Shown one piece after another: positions 1,956 through 52,369 of a stretch of 64,000 nucleotides of DNA (positions are counted from its first letter, which is position 1; each line of letters starts with the position of its first letter). Made by a program: the position numbers and the translations under genes. The stretch is from Anoxynatronum buryatiense (GTDB lineage Bacteria; Bacillota; Clostridia; Peptostreptococcales; Tindalliaceae), in assembly GCF_900182905.1 (NCBI RefSeq), contig NZ_FXUF01000006.1:1-64000 (forward strand). Direction: 5' to 3'. The notes below the pieces were generated by a model. The model was given only the letters and a program-made list of their open reading frames with translations, did no database searches and was not told where the DNA came from.

Positions 1956-2966
1956 ATGTGTAGAAAAAGAAGAAAAAAGAGAAAGATTAATTACTTTAGG
2001 ATTTGTATTTCAATTATTATTATTATTATTATACTGTTTTTGATGACTGGGGCTTATAAAAGCATCAGTCGCCTTATACCATTTGGTATGGGTATGGAAA
2101 GGTCATATGAGAAAATAAGCGCTCAATTATCAGATTCTGATGAGCAAAATATTCTGCCGCTCGTTGAACAGGAAGAGATTAACCTGAGTTTATTAAAGGG
2201 AGAACTGCATAGTCCCTATTCAATACTGGTGCGTCTGGCGGATCAAAGAATCGTTTCTGAAAATAGAAGTGAGGAAAGAATCTATCCAGCTTCACTTACG
2301 AAAATCATGACTGCAATAACAGCAATTGAGAACATTTCTGATCTTAAAGAACCGATAATCCTTCCAAAGAAAATTTTTTCTGACTTATATGCGGCTAATG
2401 CATCAATGGTTGGATTTTTACCGGGAGAGGAAGTCTCAGCGATTGATCTGTTATATGGAACAATGCTGCCTTCAGGTGCAGATGCGTCTATCGGACTGGC
2501 TATTGGAATTGCTGGTTCAGAAAAAGAACTTGCAATACTGATGAACAAGAAAGCAAAAGAAATTGGGATGAATGGAACACACTTTACAAATGTAACTGGT
2601 CTTCATGACGATCATCAATATACAACAGTAAAAGATGTTGCTATGTTACTGGAGTATGCTCTGAAGAATGGTACTTTTCGTCAGATTTTCACCTCTGAGC
2701 GTCATACTACTGCCAGCACCAATCTACATTCAGGGGGAATCACTTTTTACAGTACTTTATCAAAAAGAATTGATACTTATGAATTTGATGGTGGGAGAAT
2801 TATCGGAGGTAAAACAGGTTATACTGATAAAGCCGGACTTTGTTTGGCTAGTTTGGCTGAGAAGAATGGTACTGAATATATCTTGATTACTGTAGGTGCA
2901 GGAGGCAATCCGTATACCGAACAGTATCATATCGTGGATGCATTCATGGTGTATGATAGTATCTAA
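1956..2966 (+). CDS. D-alanyl-D-alanine carboxypeptidase, peptidase S11 family, membrane-anchored
   Basis: Removes the terminal D-Ala of peptidoglycan stem pentapeptides at the outer face of the membrane. The 336-residue protein has a very basic start, one hydrophobic anchor (about residues 14-32, a long isoleucine run), then the penicillin-binding fold with the SxxK motif PASLTKIMT (Ser113, Lys116), an SGA triad where SGN is more usual (residues 173-175), and the KTG box GGKTGYT near residue 280. It lies directly upstream of vanR-vanS and shares their AT-rich composition, so it probably belongs to the resistance cluster, where a D,D-carboxypeptidase (VanY role) would remove leftover D-Ala-D-Ala-ended precursors. 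It is S11, not the metallo-VanY family, so it may itself be beta-lactam sensitive. Confidence 0.85.
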   Translation: MCRKRRKKRKINYFRICISIIIIIIILFLMTGAYKSISRLIPFGMGMERSYEKISAQLSDSDEQNILPLVEQEEINLSLLKGELHSPYSILVRLADQRIVSENRSEERIYPASLTKIMTAITAIENISDLKEPIILPKKIFSDLYAANASMVGFLPGEEVSAIDLLYGTMLPSGADASIGLAIGIAGSEKELAILMNKKAKEIGMNGTHFTNVTGLHDDHQYTTVKDVAMLLEYALKNGTFRQIFTSERHTTASTNLHSGGITFYSTLSKRIDTYEFDGGRIIGGKTGYTDKAGLCLASLAEKNGTEYILITVGAGGNPYTEQYHIVDAFMVYDSI

Positions 2967-3020
2967 AATTCGGTATAATAGAGATGTGCTTTTATAATGA
3001 TGAAGAGGATGATAAGACAT

Positions 3021-3719
3021 ATGGGTATCAACGTTTTAGTCGTAGACGATGAACAGACAATCGCGGACTTGATTGAAGTATATCTAAAAAATGAAGGTTT
3101 CAATGTGCATAAGTTTTACAATGGGAAGGATGCTTTGGAGTGTGTTAGGTCAGAGCAACTGGATATCGCAATATTGGATGTTATGTTACCGGATATTGAT
3201 GGGTTTACTCTGTGTCAAAAAATAAGGGGAAACTACAATTTTCCTGTCATCATGCTGACGGCGAAGGGAGAAGAAATCGATAAAATTACCGGACTGACGT
3301 TGGGTGCAGACGACTACATGACAAAACCCTTTCAACCGCTAGAACTTGTAGCACGCGTCAAGGCACAGTTGCGAAGGTTTACCAAATATAATTCTGGAAA
3401 ATCATTACATGAAGATAAGATAATTGAGTTCTCGGGTTTGGTATTAAACAAGGATACCCATGAATGTATACTAAATGAAAAGCGCCTGGCTTTAACACCT
3501 ACAGAATTTTCTATCTTGTGGGTATTAGCTTCCAAACGAGGGCGGGTCGTAAGTTCAGAAGAGTTATTCCAAGAGGTATGGGGTGACAAATATTTCAGCA
3601 ACAACAATAATACGGTAATGGTACACATTCGACATCTAAGGGAAAAGATGCATGATTCTGCGGAGCATCCCAAATATATCAAAACCGTGTGGGGGGTAGG
3701 TTATAAAATTGAAAAATAA
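3021..3719 (+). CDS. vanR: VanR-type response regulator (OmpR family)
   Basis: Phosphorylation-dependent activator. Residues 1-120 form a receiver domain with the acidic pair DDE near residues 9-11, phospho-acceptor Asp53 in LDVMLPD, and the conserved Lys in the TKPF motif; residues 135-232 form an OmpR/PhoB winged helix ending in the canonical VWGVGYKIEK strand. The sequence is close to VanR proteins of VanG-type clusters (GINVLVVDDEQTIADLIEVY pattern). An upstream ATG at 2997 is possible, but ATG 3021 gives family length and has GAAGAGG upstream. It overlaps the sensor kinase gene by 11 bases, so the two are translationally coupled. Expected target: the promoter at 4891-4919 upstream of vanW. 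Confidence 0.88.
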   Translation: MGINVLVVDDEQTIADLIEVYLKNEGFNVHKFYNGKDALECVRSEQLDIAILDVMLPDIDGFTLCQKIRGNYNFPVIMLTAKGEEIDKITGLTLGADDYMTKPFQPLELVARVKAQLRRFTKYNSGKSLHEDKIIEFSGLVLNKDTHECILNEKRLALTPTEFSILWVLASKRGRVVSSEELFQEVWGDKYFSNNNNTVMVHIRHLREKMHDSAEHPKYIKTVWGVGYKIEK

Positions 3720-4833
3720 TGGGAAAAAGATGTTAGAATTTGGACTTATCATCATTACAAGTGTTTTATTTTTTTTAGGTGTTATATGGCTGGTTGACCA
3801 AGTATTTAATGGAGTAGTTAAAGAATGGTTTCTAAATATATTTGTACTTGAACCTGAATACCCAAGTCGTGGAATGGTAGGAATATTGTTTAGGAGCTGG
3901 TTTGAGGTTAAGCAATTTTTCATAAATACTTTTTTGGTAGTGCTTATTATTTTAACCACGTGTATGTGTGCATCGGCATATTTTTATGAACGTTACAGAA
4001 GCAAAAAAGAGATTACCTTTATTAAAAACACAATGGTGTCCATCATGAATTCAAACAGCGATAGTATAACACTACCAGCAAAATATTCTGAAATAGAAAC
4101 ACAGCTTATCAAGCTTAAATCAATTACTCAAAGGCAACAGCAGCTTGTACAAACAGAAATGCAGAGAAAGAATGATTTAATTACTTATTTAGCACATGAT
4201 TTAAAAACACCACTTGCTTCAGTCATCGGGTATTTGAGTCTTTTAGATGAAGTGCCAGAGATGCCGGTAGAGCAAAAATCGAAGTATGTTTCGATATCTT
4301 TGGAGAAAGCCTATCGATTGGAAGAATTGATTAACGAGTTTTTTGAAATAACAAGGTTCAATCTGCAATCCATTGTTTTAAATAAAGGCAAAATAAAACT
4401 TGCTTTTATGCTGCAGCAGTTAGCGGACGAGTTTTATCCGATGCTTGAACCTCAAGGCAAACAGGTAGCCATTGATGTCCCTGATGAGCTTAATCTGGTG
4501 GGAGATGCAGACAAACTTGCTCGTGTTTTCAACAATATTTTAAAAAACGCAATTGTTTACAGTTATGAAAGCAGTGTCATTGATATTTCTGCGACAAACG
4601 ATGGAGAAAATATCACTGTTGCTTTTATCAATCAGGGTGAGCCGATTCCTGCCCCAAATTTAGATACTATCTTTGATAAGTTTTATCGTCTGGATTCTGC
4701 CCGCTCAACAAACACTGGCGGGGCTGGATTGGGGCTGGCGATTGCTAAAGAGATCATTACGGCCCATAATGGAACGATAACAGCGGAAAGCAATCTGGAT
4801 CATACTATCTTTACTGTAAAGATCCCAGTATAA
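3709..4833 (+). CDS. vanS: VanS-type sensor histidine kinase
   Basis: A 374-residue membrane kinase. Two membrane segments (about residues 10-30 and 70-92) enclose a short extracytoplasmic loop, followed by a HAMP-like linker, a HisKA domain with His163 in LAHDLKTPLAS, and a HATPase domain with the N box NNILKNAIVYS and G2 box GGAGLGLAIAKE. The TTG start at 3709 follows GGGGGTAGG and overlaps vanR; an ATG at 3730 is the alternative. VanS proteins sense glycopeptide-induced wall stress and phosphorylate VanR. All catalytic boxes are intact, so it should be active as a kinase and phosphatase. Confidence 0.88.
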   Translation: MKNNGKKMLEFGLIIITSVLFFLGVIWLVDQVFNGVVKEWFLNIFVLEPEYPSRGMVGILFRSWFEVKQFFINTFLVVLIILTTCMCASAYFYERYRSKKEITFIKNTMVSIMNSNSDSITLPAKYSEIETQLIKLKSITQRQQQLVQTEMQRKNDLITYLAHDLKTPLASVIGYLSLLDEVPEMPVEQKSKYVSISLEKAYRLEELINEFFEITRFNLQSIVLNKGKIKLAFMLQQLADEFYPMLEPQGKQVAIDVPDELNLVGDADKLARVFNNILKNAIVYSYESSVIDISATNDGENITVAFINQGEPIPAPNLDTIFDKFYRLDSARSTNTGGAGLGLAIAKEIITAHNGTITAESNLDHTIFTVKIPV

Positions 4834-4890
4834 GTCCAATAGTACACATTATAGTAAAGATCCCTTAAAACATTTTCTTTAAATAATTTC

Positions 4891-4919
4891 TTGACAAAAG
4901 TGCGGGGATTAAATATACT
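4891..4919 (+). promoter_or_regulatory. Sigma-A promoter of the vanW-ligase-vanXY operon
   Basis: TTGACA at 4891-4896, a 17-base spacer and TATACT at 4914-4919 form a near-consensus promoter in the 200-base gap between vanS and vanW. It is flanked by inverted copies of AGTACAC (4841-4847) and GTGTACT (4924-4930), and by two direct copies of GTAAAGATCCC, one at the vanS 3' end (4816-4826) and one at 4854-4864. In known van clusters VanR activates the promoter at this position; the flanking repeats are candidate binding sites. Confidence 0.75.
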
Positions 4920-4975
4920 CATAGTGTACTACATGAATTAACACACATAATGCACACAATGCACTCAACTGTCTG

Positions 4976-5018
4976 GCAAATTGGACGGCTGAAATCCATT
5001 GTAAAGAAGCCAATTTGC
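4976..5018 (+). promoter_or_regulatory. Leader stem-loop upstream of vanW
   Basis: GCAAATTGG (4976-4984) and CCAATTTGC (5010-5018) form a perfect 9-bp stem with a 25-base loop in the 5' leader of vanW, ending 4 bases before the AAGGAG ribosome binding site at 5023-5028. A second pairing, GGCT (4987-4990) with AGCC (5008-5011), would compete with it. This may affect translation or mRNA stability; no U-tract follows, so it is not an ordinary terminator. Confidence 0.45.
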
Positions 5019-5034
5019 GAATAAGGAGCCCGCC

Positions 5035-5853
5035 ATGCATAAGAAAAGAATAACAGAGAGGTTTCCGTTTCTTTTACCGATAAGAAAGGTTCAAAGAAAA
5101 ATGTTCTTTTATACTCAAATGAAAATGGATTTTAACAAATACGCAAGAAAAATTTCGGCAGATCTTCTGGAACACACTGTTTTTTCGGCAAAATCAAAAC
5201 TGATTAATTCAGACAGCGGGTATGACATTCGGTATCAAATCAACAAAATTGATAATCTCAAGCTGGTTGCAAACACCATGAATAAAATAATCATAGCGCC
5301 CAATGAAACCTTTTCCTTTTGGATGCTGGCAAAAAACGCTGAAAGCGCTGAGAAATATAAGGAAGGGCTGGTGATGGTGAATAACCAAATAGTGCCTCTG
5401 AAAGGTGGGGGGCTTTGTCAAATGAGTAATTTGCTGTTCTGGCTATTCATTCATACACCACTTACAATAGTGGAACGACATCCCCATTCAGCCGAAACAA
5501 TACCTCAACCAAAGGGAGATATTCCTGAAGGCGTTGATGCAACAATAGCAGAAGGGTGGAAGGATTTAAAGGTGAAAAATGAAACGCAGGAAACCTTTCA
5601 GCTGGCCATCGAGTTTGATGATGAGTTTATCTATGGAACGGTGTTCAGCAATCAGCTTCAAGAGGTGATCTATACTGTCAAAAGTGAAAACTTGAAATAT
5701 ACCAGAGAAAATCAAAAAATATACCGATACAATCAAATATATAAAGAAGGGTATCACTTTTCAAAGAAAAATATGGTTTCAAGAGAGCTGGTTTTAGATA
5801 ATAAATATGAAATTAAATACGACATAGAATCTGAGATAGAAATGATTGAATAG
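5035..5853 (+). CDS. vanW: VanW family accessory protein
   Basis: A 272-residue VanW-family protein. The hallmark region is seen around residues 95-165: the FSFW segment, the GGGLCQMSNLLFWL segment and the ERHPHS motif. VanW occurs in VanB- and VanG-type glycopeptide resistance clusters; its biochemical role is not established. There is no signal peptide, but a basic, hydrophobic N-terminus. It is the first gene after the promoter at 4891-4919 and has the ribosome binding site AAGGAG seven bases before its ATG. Its position between vanS and the ligase matches the VanG-type order vanR-vanS-vanY-vanW-vanG-vanXY. Confidence 0.88.
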   Translation: MHKKRITERFPFLLPIRKVQRKMFFYTQMKMDFNKYARKISADLLEHTVFSAKSKLINSDSGYDIRYQINKIDNLKLVANTMNKIIIAPNETFSFWMLAKNAESAEKYKEGLVMVNNQIVPLKGGGLCQMSNLLFWLFIHTPLTIVERHPHSAETIPQPKGDIPEGVDATIAEGWKDLKVKNETQETFQLAIEFDDEFIYGTVFSNQLQEVIYTVKSENLKYTRENQKIYRYNQIYKEGYHFSKKNMVSRELVLDNKYEIKYDIESEIEMIE

Positions 5854-5866
5854 GGAGGGAGCGTCA

Positions 5867-6916
5867 ATGGACAAAAAGACGGTGGCAGTCATCTTTGGAG
5901 GAGAATCTTCAGAGTATGAGGTATCATTAAAATCGGCAAGTGCCGTTATTGAGAACTTGGATAAAGAGAAATATGATGTGATAAAAATAGGAATCACGCG
6001 TGAAGGCCGATGGCTCAGATATGAGGGGAACATAGATAACATCAGGAACAATACATGGTTTTTGGATGACCATTGTAAAGAGGTCATGATTTCACCAGGT
6101 AAAGGGAATGAAAACCTCATTGAGGTGGAAAATGGAATGCTAACGCATACAAAAATAGATGTGGCTTTTCCTGTTCTTCATGGTAAAAACGGAGAAGATG
6201 GCACCTTGCAGGGGCTGTTTGAGATAGCAGGAATTCCGTATGTGGGCTGCAATGTAACGACGAGTTCGATTTGCATAGACAAGGACTACACACATAAAAT
6301 TGTTGAATACGAAGGCTTTAACGTTCCAAAGAGTTTGGCGATTAACCACCAAACTCCCGAAGAAGAAATAGATGGTTTTGCGAAAGCGGTGAACTATCCT
6401 GTTTATGTCAAACCCGCACAGGAAGGTTCTTCCATAGGAATGACAAAAGCAGAAAACAGACTTCAACTGTTTCAGGGAATAAAAGAAGCGTTGAAATTTG
6501 ATGAAAAAGTTGTGTTGGAAGAAATGATTCATGGTTTTGAGGTTGGATGTGCAATTTTAGGCAACGATGATCTAATTGTCGGGACGGTGGATGAGATTGA
6601 GATTCCTGGCGGATTTTTTGACTTCACTGAAAAATACACGCTAAAAAACTCGAAAATTCACCTGCCTGCAAGAATCGATCATGAACTCTGTGAGAGAATT
6701 AAGACAGCGGCAAAAGGCATCTATCAGGCATTAGGATGCAGGGGTCTGGCAAGGGTGGATTTGTTTATAGCCGAAAAAAACAGAATCGTATTTAATGAAG
6801 TGAATACGCTTCCCGGCTTTACGACAGGGAGCCGATTTCCAAACATGTTGCTTCATGCAGGAATGGAGTATAAGTGCATTTTGGATAAGTTAATTGAGCT
6901 GGGAATGCAGAGATAA
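5867..6916 (+). CDS. vanG: D-alanine--D-serine ligase, VanG type
   Basis: ATP-grasp ligase of 349 residues that would make D-Ala-D-Ser in place of D-Ala-D-Ala, lowering vancomycin affinity. Seen: N-terminal VAVIFGGESSEYEVSLKSA, the FPVLHGKNGEDGTLQG motif, the omega-loop EKYTLKNSKIHLPARI that closely resembles EKYTLK-type loops of VanG, and the C-terminal metal-binding FNEVNTLPGFT. Ordinary Ddl enzymes carry a YDYxxKY loop here, and D-lactate ligases differ as well, so serine specificity is the best inference. Start chosen at ATG 5867 because AGGGAGGGAG precedes it; it begins 13 bases after vanW. No serine racemase gene accompanies it. Confidence 0.87.
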   Translation: MDKKTVAVIFGGESSEYEVSLKSASAVIENLDKEKYDVIKIGITREGRWLRYEGNIDNIRNNTWFLDDHCKEVMISPGKGNENLIEVENGMLTHTKIDVAFPVLHGKNGEDGTLQGLFEIAGIPYVGCNVTTSSICIDKDYTHKIVEYEGFNVPKSLAINHQTPEEEIDGFAKAVNYPVYVKPAQEGSSIGMTKAENRLQLFQGIKEALKFDEKVVLEEMIHGFEVGCAILGNDDLIVGTVDEIEIPGGFFDFTEKYTLKNSKIHLPARIDHELCERIKTAAKGIYQALGCRGLARVDLFIAEKNRIVFNEVNTLPGFTTGSRFPNMLLHAGMEYKCILDKLIELGMQR

Positions 6917-6920
6917 GAAA

Positions 6921-7688
6921 ATGAAGACAATAATTCTAAAAAAAGAAGATGTTTACAGAGGGAATTTAGTATTAATCAATAAAGAGCATTTGGTTAAAAT
7001 GAATGAGGGAGAAACAGTCGCGAAGCTGGTGGCTGTCAGTGATAAAGATAGAAATCACTTAATCAATAGAGACGCAGCCAAAGCCCTTCAACATACTTTG
7101 GACGAAATAAATGCTCAGGAAAAAATCGTTCCGGTTAGTGCTTTTCGGTCAAAACAGCAGCAAACACACTTATATAGAAACGCCGTCAATGATCATGGGA
7201 TTGACTTCACGCGAAAGTTTGTAGCTAAACCAGATGCAAGTGAACATCAGAGCGGGCTGGCAATTGACTTGGGAGAAAACAAGAAGAAGATAGATTTTAT
7301 ATGTCCTGATTTCCCATACCATGGTGTTTTTAATAGATTCAGAGCAGTTGCAAAAAAGATGGGATTCATCGAAAGGTATCAAGAGGGAAAAGAATCCATC
7401 ACAGGAATTTCAAAAGAACCATGGCATTTCCGCTACGTTGGATACCCGCATAGCGTTATAATGGTGCAAAAGGATTTTGCGCTTGAAGAATATCATGATT
7501 TTATAAAAAACTATACATCAGCGGATAATAGCTACCGGTATGAGTGTGAAAACAAGGAGATCAAACTGTTTTTTATTAAAGCAACTGCTGCTGTACAGAC
7601 GCTGTGTATCGGAGATGATGATCAATGTGAAGTATCTGGAAACAACCATGACGGCTTTATTGTCACGTTACACAGCTGTTCCGCCTAA
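6921..7688 (+). CDS. vanXY: VanXY-type D,D-peptidase (M15B)
   Basis: Zinc D,D-dipeptidase/D,D-carboxypeptidase of 255 residues that would hydrolyse D-Ala-D-Ala and D-Ala-ended pentapeptides, leaving D-Ser-ended precursors. The metal-binding motif SEHQSGLAIDLG (HxxGxAxD) and the downstream EPWHFRYVG motif (catalytic Glu and third zinc His) are both present. No N-terminal membrane anchor is present, which fits the cytosolic VanXY rather than VanY class. The ATG at 6921 lies 4 bases after the ligase stop; an in-frame TTG at 6894 is less likely. The last few codons sit at the AT-rich/GC-rich junction, so the natural C-terminus may have been altered. Confidence 0.85.
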   Translation: MKTIILKKEDVYRGNLVLINKEHLVKMNEGETVAKLVAVSDKDRNHLINRDAAKALQHTLDEINAQEKIVPVSAFRSKQQQTHLYRNAVNDHGIDFTRKFVAKPDASEHQSGLAIDLGENKKKIDFICPDFPYHGVFNRFRAVAKKMGFIERYQEGKESITGISKEPWHFRYVGYPHSVIMVQKDFALEEYHDFIKNYTSADNSYRYECENKEIKLFFIKATAAVQTLCIGDDDQCEVSGNNHDGFIVTLHSCSA

Positions 7689-46500: not shown

Positions 46501-46716
46501 ATGCGTAAACTGGTTAAAATTAAAGGAATGACCTGCGGTCACTGCAGTGCCCGCGTGGAAAAAATGCTGAAGGGTCTTGAAGGGGTCGCCGATGCTGTGG
46601 TGGATCTTGAAGGTGAAAATGCCATCATCAACCTGTCGGCCCCGGTGGATGATGCCCTGATCAGAGAGGCCATCGATGACGCCGGCTACGATGTGATTGA
46701 TATTCAGCAGCAGTAA
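46501..46716 (+). CDS. copZ: Copper chaperone CopZ
   Basis: 71-residue single heavy-metal-associated domain with the Cu(I) site GMTCGHCSARV (Cys12, Cys15) and the end AGYDVIDIQQQ. It carries Cu(I) in the cytosol and delivers it to CopA or CsoR. RBS AAAGGAG precedes ATG 46501. It follows copA by 173 bases and probably belongs to the CsoR-controlled operon. Confidence 0.93.
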   Translation: MRKLVKIKGMTCGHCSARVEKMLKGLEGVADAVVDLEGENAIINLSAPVDDALIREAIDDAGYDVIDIQQQ

Positions 46717-47033
46717 GCGAGCATCCATATGCAAAATCTGTCAGGTTGAACCCGCCATATCGAGACGGCCAGATGAGTACCACAAAGCAGACATACCCAG
46801 TTTGAAAATGAATAACCCTTTGTCTTGCGCCGGCACACCTGCTGTTTCTCAGCCCGTGCCGGTGCTTTTTGATGTGCCAATCCCGGGTAAATCCCGTTGG
46901 CAGGAAGGGGATGGTGAGAAAGCCCGACGGTTGACCTGAAAGGAAAAAATGAGATACAATGGTGTTAAACATTGGAAAAAGTCTGACAATAATTCCACTT
47001 CACCCTCTCAAATTTCCTCAGGCGGTGGTGACA

Positions 47034-48758
47034 ATGAAATTGGTGAACCCATCTTATCAGCGAAAACTCCGGTATCCATTGATCATCTCCCTTACCCTGG
47101 CGGTACTGGTTATCTTCGCCGCCTGTGACCTTGCCCCGGCCTCTTTGCCAGGCTCTGCCGATCGCCGAATCCCTCCCCTCACCCTTCTCACCAACACCGA
47201 AAGCTATGACCCGGTACGGTACCACGCGGCCCATCAAATTGCAGCCTGGTGGCGTGAGCTGGGTTTTGAAGTGGAAGTGATTCCCATGGAATTCAATGAA
47301 CTGACCTATGCCGTACGAAATTTTGATCCAGAGGAGAAAGACTGGGATGCCTTCACCATGAGCTGGACAGGCCGGGTGGAACGGGCCGACCCGGATATGT
47401 TCATCTATTCCATTGCCCACTCTTCCCAGGCGGGGATCATGGGCAATAATTACTGTGAATACCGAAATGAAGCCTATGATGCTTTGGCTGAAGCCCAGCG
47501 GCGGGTCATGAATCCAGATGTGCGCCGGGAGGTGGTGTATGCCGCCCAGGAGAAGCTGGCTAAGGATGTTCCCTATGTGACGCTGTTTTACCGCCGGGTG
47601 GTACAGGCCTACCGTCAGGACCGGTGGGAAAACATGACTGCCATGGCGGGAGAAGGGTTGTACCATGAATGGCTGCCCTTTCATGCCCGTCCCATAGACC
47701 GCCAACCCCTGGATGAAGAACCCATGAGACTGGTCATTGCCAGCAACCAGGAGCCTTCTTCCCTGAATCCCCTCACCGCATCCACTGTCTGGGAATGGAA
47801 GCTGCTGCGCCTGATGTACGATAAACTGGCCCGGGTGAACCAGTATTTTCAGCCGAAGCCCTGGGCCGCCCGGGATATTCGTCAGGTGAACGACATTACC
47901 ATCGACGTGATCTTACGGGAAGGGATGACTTTTCATGACGGCCAGCCTGTGCGACCTGAAGATGTGGTGTTTACCTACAACATGATGCGGGAGCGAGGAG
48001 TCACTTATTTTGCCGCCTTTTTAGACCCCATTAAAGAAGTGGTGCTGCTGCCGGACCGCACCATCCGTTTTCGGCTGAAAGAGCCCTACGCGGCCTTCAT
48101 CACCATGACCCTGGCCCAGATTCCCATTCTGCCGGAGCACCTGTGGTCAGAATTCCTGCACGAATATGAAATAGCAGCCCCTGCAACACCTGGAGCATCA
48201 GAGAATGTGCCTGTGCCCTTGGTGGGCAGCGGTCCCCTGTTTTTTGAAACCTGGGATCATGGAAAACAGATCACTTTTCGAAAAGATCCCCACTACTTTG
48301 CAGCCGACGATGTGGCCCTTGACGAGCTGGTTTACAGCCTCTATCCCGATACGGAAAGCCTGATGCAAGCTCTTTTATCCGGCGAGGCAGATATGACCGG
48401 GGTGAATCTGGAGCCGGATCAGCTTCCCGTGGCAGAGGCATTCGCCGAAATTCAGGTGATTCAAGTGCCTGATCTGGGCTTTCACTATCTGGGATTCAAC
48501 TGCTCCCGCCCTCCCTTCGACGACCCGGTGATGCGCCAGGCCGCCGCCATGGCCATGGATCTGGAACACCTGGTTTCTCAATACCTGAACGGAATGGGGG
48601 ATGTGGGCGGTGCCGGTCAGCCCATTTCCACAGGCAATGTGTTCTGGAAAAACCCGACCGTCACCCAATACCCCTTCGATATTACCAAAGCCAGAGAAAT
48701 GCTGCAGGAAGCCGGATACACCTGGGATGAACAGGACCGGATCTGCTGGAAGGAGTGA
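47034..48758 (+). CDS. Lipoprotein with circularly permuted oligopeptide-binding (SBP_5) fold
   Basis: 574 residues. A hydrophobic N-terminus ends in FAAC with lipid-modified Cys31. Residues about 46-225 carry patterns normally found in the last third of SBP_5 proteins: HQIAAWWRELGFEVEVIPME, AFTMSWTGR, YRNEAYDALAEAQRRVM, LAKDVPYVTLFYRR. Residues about 230-574 carry what is normally the first two thirds: LVIASNQEPSSLNPLTAST, LREGMTFHDGQPVRPEDVVF, VGSGPLFF, DDPVMRQAAAMAMDLEHLV, MLQEAGYTWDEQDRICWKE, where the protein stops. No permease genes adjoin it. The next gene, a GGDEF-EAL protein, starts 5 bases after its stop, suggesting a sensing partnership. Start ATG 47034 follows GGTGGTGA. Confidence 0.8.
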   Translation: MKLVNPSYQRKLRYPLIISLTLAVLVIFAACDLAPASLPGSADRRIPPLTLLTNTESYDPVRYHAAHQIAAWWRELGFEVEVIPMEFNELTYAVRNFDPEEKDWDAFTMSWTGRVERADPDMFIYSIAHSSQAGIMGNNYCEYRNEAYDALAEAQRRVMNPDVRREVVYAAQEKLAKDVPYVTLFYRRVVQAYRQDRWENMTAMAGEGLYHEWLPFHARPIDRQPLDEEPMRLVIASNQEPSSLNPLTASTVWEWKLLRLMYDKLARVNQYFQPKPWAARDIRQVNDITIDVILREGMTFHDGQPVRPEDVVFTYNMMRERGVTYFAAFLDPIKEVVLLPDRTIRFRLKEPYAAFITMTLAQIPILPEHLWSEFLHEYEIAAPATPGASENVPVPLVGSGPLFFETWDHGKQITFRKDPHYFAADDVALDELVYSLYPDTESLMQALLSGEADMTGVNLEPDQLPVAEAFAEIQVIQVPDLGFHYLGFNCSRPPFDDPVMRQAAAMAMDLEHLVSQYLNGMGDVGGAGQPISTGNVFWKNPTVTQYPFDITKAREMLQEAGYTWDEQDRICWKE

Positions 48759-48763
48759 CCCCC

Positions 48764-51289
48764 GTGGCACAACAGCCCCCACCCCGGTTGATTAAACGCA
48801 CCAAACTCATCGGATACCCCATGATTCTGGTAACCCTGGGCCTGATCATCATCAGCGTGGCCGGCACCTACACCAGCCGCCATTTGATTATTAATCAAAT
48901 CAAAGAAGATGGCGTCACCCTGGCCCGCCAGATTGTTCGCCAGATTCAGGGGAATGAGTCCTCCGTCAGACTGACCCGGCATATGCTGGAAACCCATATC
49001 AGCAGTGCCAACCAGCTGGCGGTGGACAATCGGGACCAAATAAGTGATGAGTACCTCACTTATCTGACGCAAATCACCCTGATGGATGAAATCACCTGGC
49101 ATGATGCTGACGGCCGGGTGTTGTTTGCCAGTGACAAGTCTCAGCGAAGGCCTGTTGCCGCCGGAGACTCGCTGTATGCTTTTTTGCGGGGCCCTGATCA
49201 GGAGCTGATGGAACCGTTGCGATTTATCAGCCTGACGGGCGAGAACTATCAATATGGCGCCCTGAAACATCCCAGCGGCGAATTTGTCCGGTCGGGTATT
49301 CTGGCAGATAATGTGCTGGAGCTGACCCGGCAGTTTAGCTATCAGACACTGGTGGCACAAGTGGCTGAGAGCGAAAACCTCACCTATGCCCTGGTGGTGG
49401 ACCGTCAGATGACGGCCATTGCCGACTCTGATCTGAAGGATATTGGTATTCGCTATGTCCCGGAGGAAGAAGTGGCTATGCAGGCAGCTTTTCGGGGAGC
49501 AACAAGGGTGGCAGAATGGTATGACGAGTCCAGAAATGAACGGGTCATGGAAGTGATCACGCCCATTATCACCGATGGAGAAATCAATCATGTTCTCATC
49601 GTGGGCATGTCCATGGCCTCGGTGTATGCCCATTTTCACCAAATGACGCTGATTTTTGTGGCAACGGCACTGGCTGTGCTGCTGGCCTTTTTGTGGCTCC
49701 AGCGGCGGCATGTGATGGCACCGGTGAAAGAGCTGGACGCAGGCATCAGCAGCATTGACATCAAAGAACAGATGGATTACCGCATTCAGCTCTCCCCGGG
49801 CAATCCTTTCCTGGGTCTGGCGGCCACCATCAACCAGATCCTGGACCGCACCCAGCAGTACTTCACCAGCCTTCAGAAAAACCAGCGGGACCTGGAAATA
49901 TCCAACCAGAACATCACCGAAGCCTACCAGCGCATTCAGGCTTCCGAAGAAGCTCTCAACGATCAGCTGGCTTACATCACAGAGCAGCAGGAATGGATTC
50001 AGCATCAGGCCTATCATGACGACCTGACACAGCTTCCCAACCGGCGCCATTTCATGGAGCGTCTGGCCAGCTGCCTGCAGCACGAGTTTCAGGGGGCGGT
50101 GATTCTGGTGGACACCGATAACTTCAAAAGTATCAATGATACCATGGGCCATATATTTGGAGACAAAGTGTTAAAACAGATGGGAAGAGAACTCGTTTCC
50201 CTGCTGGGAAAAAGTGTTTTTCTCTCCCGGTTTGGCGGCGATGAGTTTCTGATTTTGCTGGACAGACCCTCGGATTCACGACAGGTGGAATCTGTCGCGC
50301 TGGCCATTAAAAGTCATTTCAGCCGGCACTTTTCGGTGGAGGAGACCAGTGTTCATCTGACCCTGAGCATGGGCATTGCCACTTATCCGGAACATGGGCA
50401 AGATCCGGAGTCACTGATTATGAAAGCTGATATGGCCCTTCACCGGGTGAAAACCATGGGGAAGAACAATTATCTGTTCTTTGATGAATCCATGACCAAC
50501 AGCATGCGGGAAAAAGCCCGGGTGGAGAACATTCTTCGGGAAGCGTTGGAAACCGATGGCTTCACCCTGCATTATCAGCCCCAGGTGGCAGTTAAAACTG
50601 GAAAGCTGACAGGCTTCGAAGCGTTGTTGCGCCTAAAAGACTTTTCGGTGCCCCCCGGCATCTTCATTTCCGTGGCAGAAGAAATAGGGCTTATTCTTGA
50701 AATTGGACGCTGGGTAACCCGGGCGGTGATCCGGCAGGTGGCAGCCTGGCAGGAGCAGGAGCTGCCGGTGATGCCCGTATCCATCAATTTTTCCGCGTTG
50801 CAGCTTAATGATACCGATTATGTGGATTTCCTGAAGCGGGAACTTTACCAGATGAACGTGCCTCCCCGGCTGATTATGATCGAAATCACCGAAAGCATTT
50901 TTCTGGATAACCGGGAGGAGACCCTCCGGTTTCTTCACCAGCTGAAAAACCTGGGAGTCACCATCAGCATCGACGACTTCGGTACTGGCTATTCATCCCT
51001 CAGTTACCTCACCGAAGTGCCGGCAGATCTGGTGAAACTGGATAAAAGCCTCATTGACCGGTACCTGGAAAAAAACAGCCAGGCAGTTATCGACAGCATG
51101 ATTGCCCTGATCCACAGTTTGAATCTTGAGGTGCTGGCCGAGGGCGTTGAAGAAAAGGAACAGTTCCGGCGTCTGGCCTCCTGCGGCTGCGACTACATTC
51201 AGGGGTACCTGTTCAGTAAACCCCTGCCGCCGGAAGACGCCGTGAATCTCTTTCATCAGAATTTTACCAGCCTCTTCAAAGAAGCATAG
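48764..51289 (+). CDS. Membrane GGDEF-EAL protein, c-di-GMP turnover
   Basis: About 841 residues from GTG 48764, which has AAGGAG eight bases upstream. Two membrane helices (about residues 17-36 and 285-305) enclose a 250-residue extracytoplasmic sensor, probably a Cache/PAS-type double domain; then a HAMP-like linker and coiled coil, a GGDEF domain with intact DDLTQLPNR and RFGGDEF, and an EAL domain with EALLRL, the metal ligands in INFSALQL, IEITES and IDDFGTGYSS, VKLDKSLI and IQGYLFSKPL. Both catalytic sites look functional. It is co-transcribed with the permuted binding lipoprotein, which may present a ligand to its sensor. Confidence 0.9.
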   Translation: MAQQPPPRLIKRTKLIGYPMILVTLGLIIISVAGTYTSRHLIINQIKEDGVTLARQIVRQIQGNESSVRLTRHMLETHISSANQLAVDNRDQISDEYLTYLTQITLMDEITWHDADGRVLFASDKSQRRPVAAGDSLYAFLRGPDQELMEPLRFISLTGENYQYGALKHPSGEFVRSGILADNVLELTRQFSYQTLVAQVAESENLTYALVVDRQMTAIADSDLKDIGIRYVPEEEVAMQAAFRGATRVAEWYDESRNERVMEVITPIITDGEINHVLIVGMSMASVYAHFHQMTLIFVATALAVLLAFLWLQRRHVMAPVKELDAGISSIDIKEQMDYRIQLSPGNPFLGLAATINQILDRTQQYFTSLQKNQRDLEISNQNITEAYQRIQASEEALNDQLAYITEQQEWIQHQAYHDDLTQLPNRRHFMERLASCLQHEFQGAVILVDTDNFKSINDTMGHIFGDKVLKQMGRELVSLLGKSVFLSRFGGDEFLILLDRPSDSRQVESVALAIKSHFSRHFSVEETSVHLTLSMGIATYPEHGQDPESLIMKADMALHRVKTMGKNNYLFFDESMTNSMREKARVENILREALETDGFTLHYQPQVAVKTGKLTGFEALLRLKDFSVPPGIFISVAEEIGLILEIGRWVTRAVIRQVAAWQEQELPVMPVSINFSALQLNDTDYVDFLKRELYQMNVPPRLIMIEITESIFLDNREETLRFLHQLKNLGVTISIDDFGTGYSSLSYLTEVPADLVKLDKSLIDRYLEKNSQAVIDSMIALIHSLNLEVLAEGVEEKEQFRRLASCGCDYIQGYLFSKPLPPEDAVNLFHQNFTSLFKEA

Positions 51290-51328
51290 GCTTATGGTAA
51301 AATGGGGAAATGACAAGGAGGATTGCCC

Positions 51329-52369
51329 ATGAAAAAAGGATGCCTGATTACACTCACAGTGGCGGGCCTGTTGATCTTCATCAGTGCCGCCCTTGGAATA
51401 GGAGCCTTCTTGCTGGCTCCCACAGCACTGTCCGTCACCATTCATGAAGCCCCTGTTGAAATCACCGTGGCTTCCGGCGACAGCCTGCACCGGGTGTCGG
51501 AGCGGCTGAAAGAAGAAGGAGTCATTCGCAGTGCCCTCTGGTTTCGGCGCAAAGGCCAAGAAGAAGGGATCGACAGGCTCATCAAGCCGGGAGCCCTGGT
51601 GATTGAGCCCGGCAGCCACATCGACGATGTCTTCGAAGCCTTAATCATCGACCGCCAGCAGCGGGAACAGGTGCGGGTTACCTTCCCCGAAGGGTTCACC
51701 CTCTACCAGATGGCCCGGCGGCTGGAAGAACGGGAGATTGTCTCGGCCGAAGATTTTCTGGAAGCCACCCGGCGGTATTATGAAGCCGGTGACTACCCCT
51801 TTGAAGCCGGCCAGCTCTACTTTCCCCTGGAAGGCTATCTGTTTCCCGATACCTACCAGTTTGAAATGGATGCCACCGCGGATGAAATTGTAGCAGTGAT
51901 GGCCCGGCAGATGGAAAAAGTACTCACCCCTGAATGGCGTCAGCGGGCAGAAGAGTTGGGGTACAATACTCACCAGTTGCTGACATTGGCCTCCCTCATC
52001 GAAAAGGAAGCCTTCGGCGACCATGAACGGCCCACCATTGCCGGCGTGGTTTACAACCGGCTGGAAATCGACATGCTTCTCCAGTTCTGTTCCTCAGTGA
52101 TTTACGGGCTGGATGACGGGCAGGAACTGGCCACCCGCCTGCTCTACCGGGACCTGGAAGAATCGCATCCCTTCAATACCTACAAGTACAAGGGACTTCC
52201 CCCCGGCCCCATCGCTAACCCCGGCCGGGCTTCCATTGAAGCAGCCCTTTACCCTGAAGACAATGACTATCTCTACTTTGTGGTGGGCGACGGCGGGCAC
52301 AACTTCAGCCGGGAATACCGGGATCACCTTCAAAATGTGGAGGCCTACCGCAACCGAAGTGATGAGTAA
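51329..52369 (+). CDS. mltG: Endolytic murein transglycosylase MltG (YceG-like)
   Basis: 346 residues. One N-terminal helix (residues 5-28), a LysM-like subdomain (ITVASGDSLHRVSERLKEEG), and the YceG catalytic domain with FPLEGYLFPDTYQFE, the catalytic Glu in LLTLASLIEKEAFG, VVYNRLEIDMLLQ and GLPPGPIANPGRASIEA. MltG cleaves nascent glycan strands and sets chain length. Start ATG 51329 follows AAGGAGG. Between the EAL gene and the DedA-like gene. Confidence 0.93.
   Translation: MKKGCLITLTVAGLLIFISAALGIGAFLLAPTALSVTIHEAPVEITVASGDSLHRVSERLKEEGVIRSALWFRRKGQEEGIDRLIKPGALVIEPGSHIDDVFEALIIDRQQREQVRVTFPEGFTLYQMARRLEEREIVSAEDFLEATRRYYEAGDYPFEAGQLYFPLEGYLFPDTYQFEMDATADEIVAVMARQMEKVLTPEWRQRAEELGYNTHQLLTLASLIEKEAFGDHERPTIAGVVYNRLEIDMLLQFCSSVIYGLDDGQELATRLLYRDLEESHPFNTYKYKGLPPGPIANPGRASIEAALYPEDNDYLYFVVGDGGHNFSREYRDHLQNVEAYRNRSDE

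Follow-up and report, generated by a model that had tools for sequence, protein, structure and literature searches.

Solute-binding proteins (SBPs) can activate transmembrane receptors, among them diguanylate cyclases and phosphodiesterases, and receptor activation of this kind also occurs in Gram-positive bacteria (PMC9602780). A close counterpart is the NspS-MbaA pair of Vibrio cholerae and Sinorhizobium (PMC8967002, PMC8079147, PMC9993111), in which nspS, encoding a polyamine-binding SBP, lies directly upstream of mbaA, encoding a membrane GGDEF-EAL protein. NspS interacts with the periplasmic domain of MbaA and, in its liganded state, is presumed to drive association and cyclase activity (PMC8079147, PMC8967002). 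A second precedent is TpMglB-2 (Tp0684) of Treponema pallidum, a naturally permuted Cluster B glucose-binding lipoprotein for which the name 'Cluster Bc' was proposed. TpMglB-2 is tethered and still closes on its ligand, service to an ABC transporter is very likely according to its authors, and tethering was named as a possible reason for the permutation (PMC4990184). The present analysis concerns a two-gene locus of Anoxynatronum buryatiense, located in the first 64,000 nucleotides of contig NZ_FXUF01000006.1 (hereafter the window), where a circularly permuted lipoprotein of the SBP_bac_5 family is followed directly by a membrane GGDEF-EAL protein.

The open reading frame (ORF) at 47034..48758 (+ strand) encodes 574 residues and carries the last third of SBP_bac_5 ahead of the first two thirds, based upon its translation, Pfam profile matches and a rotation scan. 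PF00496 was the sole Pfam family matched at E up to 0.001, with a whole-protein score of 225.8 bits against a curated cut-off of 32.4, and the match fell into two stretches. Within a single open frame, profile positions 277-365 (nt 47142-47429; E 7.9e-7 and, taken alone, under the curated cut-off) precede positions 2-285 (nt 47853-48740), in place of the canonical linear order. No NCBIfam model reached its cut-off on this protein. A hidden Markov model (HMM) built from eight canonical SBP_5 paralogues of the same genome assigned residues 49-202 to model positions 401-542 (60.4 bits) and residues 227-565 to positions 67-396 (185.3 bits). The corresponding segment 1, the last third of a canonical protein, lies at 47178..47639 (+), and segment 2, the first two thirds, at 47712..48728 (+), with nine more residues to the end of the protein. 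Rotation at residues 204-224 merged the two out-of-order domains into a single domain of 249-251 bits spanning model positions 67-542. This is the order proposed in the first-pass annotation, which had placed the boundary near nucleotide 47710; the HMM boundary falls at 47712, and a linear SBP_5 alignment was worse than the rotated one. The second permuted protein of the genome behaved alike (66.4 and 190.2 bits unrotated; 253.8 bits rotated). Among leave-one-out canonical controls, scanned in 8-residue steps, rotation gained at most 3.2 bits in 8/8, and the best rotations shown fell no more than about 32 residues from the chain ends. The frame of the window gene is open and no sign of decay was seen.

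Each segment also found its place among solved proteins, segment 1 alone matching 1dpp residues 356-486 (E 1.9e-5) and segment 2 alone matching the first two thirds (1dpp 62-340; 1xoc 23-350). A predicted model of the whole protein (pLDDT 68.7, pTM 0.63) was consistent with this for segment 2: among the 50 matches listed, model residues from about 222 to 574 aligned with the first two thirds of SBP_5 structures over 297-328 residues (Z 16.0-18.2, rmsd 3.7-6.8). For segment 1 on its own the predicted model was weak (pTM 0.42), and the best Foldseek match had an E of 0.15, with none at 0.001; several of its best rows paired it with the last third of SBP_5 chains at Z of about 5-6, level with unrelated rows. 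Segment 1 as an isolated fold was consequently dropped for want of a trustworthy structural match. A charge swap in the dipeptide clamp was likewise abandoned. R383 and D436 of E. coli DppA hold the peptide ends (PMC12136057); one alignment puts R114 of the window SBP at the D436 place and another puts E116 there, because the permuted family has two extra residues.

Compared with SBPs of the DppA/OppA/AppA type (PF00496, Cluster C), both segments match members and the family shares their usual dpp context, whereas the segment order is exchanged and the membrane anchor sits ahead of the old last third. The presumed anchor is a lipobox-like cysteine (FAAC, residue 31; 47124..47126, +) behind a hydrophobic signal stretch. 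With TpMglB-2 (PMC4990184) the window SBP has natural circular permutation in common, as seen from rotation, trees and cut point; the two differ in that TpMglB-2 has a Cluster B fold and another cut, while the window SBP has the Cluster C family PF00496 as its sole Pfam match at E up to 0.001 and is not of an MglB-like family. No report of a naturally permuted PF00496 protein was found in the full-text library searched, which lacks most subscription papers, and TpMglB-2 was the one clear permuted-SBP precedent. The word stem 'permut' was not found in the main text of PMC9602780, on SBP-activated receptors. In annotation, the Pfam match looks the same as that of an ordinary SBP_5 protein, so the segment order is easily missed.

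The permuted order is not confined to the window. The same genome holds a second permuted gene (G000:C2:211917-213599, hereafter C2), 41% identical to the window SBP, and surveys yielded matches in 8/98 relatives, 2/391 genomes of the class, 12/393 of the order and 8/348 of the phylum. These genome sets overlap, every count includes the own genome, and the phylum count includes one fragment (L179); few candidates were scored in the class survey, and surveys of about 300 or more genomes scored 3 to 7 candidates per genome, so absences are soft. A scan of named genomes returned 14 loci, 12 of them permuted (L043 was canonical and L044 a partial match). The carriers were a Tissierellia metagenome-assembled genome (MAG), Alkaliphilus peptidifermentans (DSM 18978; L036), a Clostridiaceae MAG, spirochaetal MAGs, Alkalispirochaeta alkalica (DSM 8900; L039) and a Latescibacterota MAG. 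In total 35 permuted ORFs were reduced to 32 distinct ones by removing L036 and L103, whose contigs are, judged by length and content, those of L028 and L042, together with L179 (a truncated SBP fused to dppF), leaving proteins from Firmicutes-like, spirochaetal and Latescibacterota genomes. An assembly or sequencing rearrangement at about 47.7 kb, which would make the order an artefact, is contradicted by the same order in these 32 distinct genes, named records included; nothing was found in its favour, and it can practically be discounted.

All permuted proteins share a cut point, with segment 2 ending at model position 395-398 in 31/32 (L182 runs off its contig). In a first tree, 23/23 permuted proteins were monophyletic against canonical relatives with an ultrafast bootstrap (UFBoot) of 100 for the whole protein, 100 for segment 2 alone and 98 for segment 1 alone; since each segment alone gives the same permuted clade, the two share one history. 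A larger tree placed 32/32 permuted proteins in one clade against six canonical relatives (UFBoot 100). Given the common cut point and the single clade, the permutation apparently arose in one ancient event. In such an event the old C-terminus would have been joined to the old N-terminus, and new ends would have opened in the loop behind the usual 'AG(F/Y)xWD' motif, which in E. coli DppA lies roughly between residues 347 and 356. The transporter genes point the same way. Searches with DppB gave 27 matches in 22/297 genomes; the 12 at 46% identity or more all came from permuted-SBP operons, and the other 15 (39-43%) had a canonical SBP adjoining in 14 cases, L145 being without an SBP gene found. 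The own canonical paralogue L003 fell in the sister group of the permuted operons.

A lipobox-like pattern was present in 20/23 of the permuted proteins first collected; that of L041 lies far upstream of the signal stretch, so 19 were counted with and four without. These four, all spirochaetal (L032, L033, L035, L041), have a signal-like N-terminus and no cysteine at a plausible place and may be soluble periplasmic proteins. Tethering is thus not universal in the permuted family. Two further loci were observed among these genomes. The ORF at L179:4898-6358 joins a shortened permuted SBP, which corresponds to C2 residues 78-275, in frame with the rear of dppF, as would result from an internal deletion of the rest of the operon or from misassembly, and in G540 (C116:107427-108380 and 122895-123848) canonical-SBP and permuted-SBP dpp operons lie about 14.5 kb apart on one contig.

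The usual neighbours of permuted SBPs are transporter genes. In 29/32 cases dpp genes were found within 250 nt on the same strand; the three that lack them are the window gene, L181, and L182, which lies at a contig end. At C2 the permuted SBP is followed by genes matching permease, OppC, ABC and oligopeptide-transporter ATPase families, i.e. two permease and two ATPase genes, designated dppB, dppC, dppD and dppF from these family matches and elsewhere by BLAST to the C2 proteins. The contig ends before the operon is complete in L026, L033 and L041. The SBP is the first gene except in L175 (149-5913) and L177 (830-6538), where it is last, after dppF; in L176 and L178, from the same two genomes, it is first. 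The permutation is therefore compatible with transport, most simply arose there, and is not itself a sign of signalling. The first-pass annotation was right about the order of segments; that the family normally serves a transporter was not visible to it. No common ligand is proposed from gene context, as neighbour families other than SBP and dpp recurred in at most 6/31 loci. Molybdopterin oxidoreductase genes lie near L181:3779-5590 and L182:4615-6291, where no dpp genes are in view (L181 by a Pfam match, L182 by NCBIfam matches that stayed below cut-off). About 5.7 kb upstream of the C2 operon, the region L013:53-2208 contains an adenine deaminase gene (TIGR01178 above cut-off) along with the end of a gene resembling xanthine dehydrogenase.

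The partner of the window SBP is an 841-residue membrane GGDEF-EAL protein (48764..51289, +). Its GTG start lies 5 nt after the SBP stop codon, which ends at 48758, and a ribosome-binding-site-like AAGGAG (48750..48755, +), 8 nt ahead of the GTG, sits inside the 3' end of the SBP gene. Two hydrophobic stretches (residues 15-33 and 294-312) enclose a putative extracytoplasmic Cache-type sensor (48863..49642, +), and Pfam matches comprise PF00990, PF00563 and Cache, with sCache_3_2 at residues 193-294. Among 15 aligned family members (E up to 0.1), sCache_3_2 was found in 14 and dCache_1 in nine. The GGDEF domain (50009..50470, +) has an intact GGDEF motif and the EAL domain (50528..51223, +) has EALLR and DDFGTGYSS stretches, in each case as in 14 aligned homologues. 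The close spacing, the two hydrophobic stretches, the putative outside sensor and the retained GGDEF and EAL motifs agree with the initial reading of the locus, as does the absence of a transporter permease nearby: among ORFs of at least 100 residues at 40-58 kb, none reads as a peptide-transporter permease adjoining the SBP. Branched-chain-type permease-like ORFs at 55.5-57.5 kb belong, by reading, to a separate system that looks complete and includes a binding protein.

The pairing itself was not conserved. Sensor matches at 1e-10 occurred in 37/98 genomes, the own one included; among six other genomes with permuted genes only G768 had sensor matches, and these were weak (27-30%). In 12 loci with homologous GGDEF-EAL proteins, whose neighbours were compared with SBP_5 by BLAST and whose nearest upstream ORFs were judged by eye, an SBP lay directly upstream in 0/12, and in 30 other permuted loci with a visible downstream gene none had a GGDEF-EAL gene directly downstream on the same strand. 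At one of the 12, L088, a canonical SBP-dpp operon lies some 3 kb from the GGDEF-EAL gene and is transcribed divergently. GGDEF- or EAL-matching ORFs on the opposite strand were also seen about 0.5-1 kb past permuted SBP-dpp units (L024:14755-15798, L175:6431-7786, L178:11537-11965). L092:8662-16604 contains three tandem GGDEF-EAL genes of the window type downstream of two topoisomerase-like genes (by reading), and L093 has two tandem copies in the same topoisomerase-like setting.

Phylogeny, residue conservation and the matching locus of a relative bear on the history of the window copy. In the larger tree the window SBP groups with L175, L176, L177 and L178 (UFBoot 100; 42-48% identity), with a UFBoot of only 55 for a position as sister to L175/L177. 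The first tree, without L175-L178, placed it with clade A at 83, or at 76 for segment 1 alone, and segment 2 alone gave no grouping. A recent duplication of the C2 gene is not supported, the two SBPs falling in different clades of the larger tree. The window SBP keeps 65 of the 78 positions invariant in the 22 transporter-linked members first collected; by comparison, when three clade-A members were left out one at a time, each retained 96-100% of invariant positions, and four group-B members retained 54-57% of the positions invariant in clade A plus the window.

In the same-genus genome G002 the genes flanking the pair are contiguous, in the order GNAT-like (by reading), metal-sensitive repressor, copper-type P-ATPase, heavy-metal-associated protein and YceG/MltG-like, the families being taken from profile matches of the window copies. 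A short intergenic stretch follows the metal-binding gene, with neither SBP nor GGDEF-EAL gene between the flanks, and the window pair sits exactly at this junction. Its left flank is a 71-residue heavy-metal-associated protein (PF00403, CopZ-like; 46501..46716, +), also found at the empty locus L159, where it is directly followed by the YceG/MltG-like gene (PF02618) that forms the right flank in the window (51323..52369, +). All 12 candidates in G002 were scored and none was a permuted SBP at 1e-60; the best sensor match there was 29%. Since the matching locus lacks both genes, they are present or absent as one two-gene unit, by gain or loss, in this one genome pair. Other genes lie upstream of the MltG-like gene in G003 to G006. 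GC content at 47-51 kb (0.52-0.55) is within the flank range, and no sign of recent foreign origin was seen.

Taken together, the best explanation, held with about even confidence, is that the window SBP acts as a co-receptor of the cyclic di-GMP (c-di-GMP) enzyme, by analogy with NspS-MbaA, whose layout, with the SBP gene immediately ahead of the gene for a membrane GGDEF-EAL protein, is the same; it is on account of this layout that a co-receptor is favoured over the alternatives below. The 5-nt gap, the AAGGAG inside the SBP end, the joint absence from G002 and the retained invariant positions support the pairing. In these respects the original suggestion of a solute-binding receptor feeding c-di-GMP signalling is plausible. 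The pair differs from NspS-MbaA in its permuted PF00496 receptor as opposed to a polyamine-binding one and in not recurring in the other genomes examined. Several observations count against a co-receptor. The pair was seen in one genome only. The sensor type evidently works without an SBP, the dpp context of the family shows that permutation is not tied to signalling, and the permease of the permuted dppABCDF operon in the same genome could also serve the window SBP.

This last point leads to a possible, though distinctly less probable, explanation in which the window SBP hands its solute to a permease from another locus, in the simplest case the DppBCDF of C2, while the GGDEF-EAL gene shares the transcript for reasons of regulation or convenience. 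The transporter context of the other permuted SBPs, the permease and ATPase genes available at C2 and the retention of family-invariant positions all speak for such an orphan transport receptor. However, no peptide-type permease adjoins the window SBP, its gene is tightly coupled to the GGDEF-EAL gene and present or absent with it, and its divergence from the C2 SBP, in another clade, indicates that it did not arise as a recent duplicate retained for the C2 permease. It is unlikely that the two genes are chance neighbours with no functional link, the sensor binding its own ligand through the Cache domain. Cache domains often bind small molecules directly, and homologous GGDEF-EAL proteins occur without an SBP directly upstream, some as tandem copies, but the ribosome-binding-site-like sequence of the second gene sits inside the first, and both genes are missing together from the same-genus locus.

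A promoter-like TTGACC-18-TACAAT (46931..46960, +) lies upstream of the SBP gene; sites of this type numbered six in the region against 4.6 expected from shuffles. Scans of the region for repeats and RNA families yielded pairs of short repeats and a single Rfam match, which fell short of its gathering score. Elsewhere in the window, positions 1956-7688 hold a glycopeptide-resistance-like run in which models for the VanR family, VanW and a VanG-type D-alanine-D-serine ligase exceeded their cut-offs and the best VanS and VanXY matches remained below theirs.

Returning to the co-receptor, the window SBP would be the membrane-anchored receptor half of a two-gene system, capturing a small solute and closing; the closed SBP would touch the Cache sensor of the GGDEF-EAL protein translated along with it, and this contact would shift the enzyme's balance between making and degrading c-di-GMP, in the way that NspS acts on MbaA. 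In canonical DppA both chain ends presumably lie in one lobe. On a broader and rather doubtful view, permutation moved the membrane anchor to the other lobe and founded a lasting family of permuted transport receptors, and in one branch the changed anchoring might have allowed a ligand-gated co-receptor of a Cache-GGDEF-EAL enzyme, with lobe closure read directly as a c-di-GMP signal. To our knowledge, there are few documented cases of a transport receptor whose natural circular permutation has persisted over long evolutionary times. The one described here has its place on a tree, next to a canonical sister group that includes the own paralogue L003 and together with a conserved transporter, so that the features of a Venus-flytrap receptor that depend on chain order and anchor position become addressable. 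If the window copy does signal, a permuted receptor would have changed its partner from a permease to a second-messenger enzyme.

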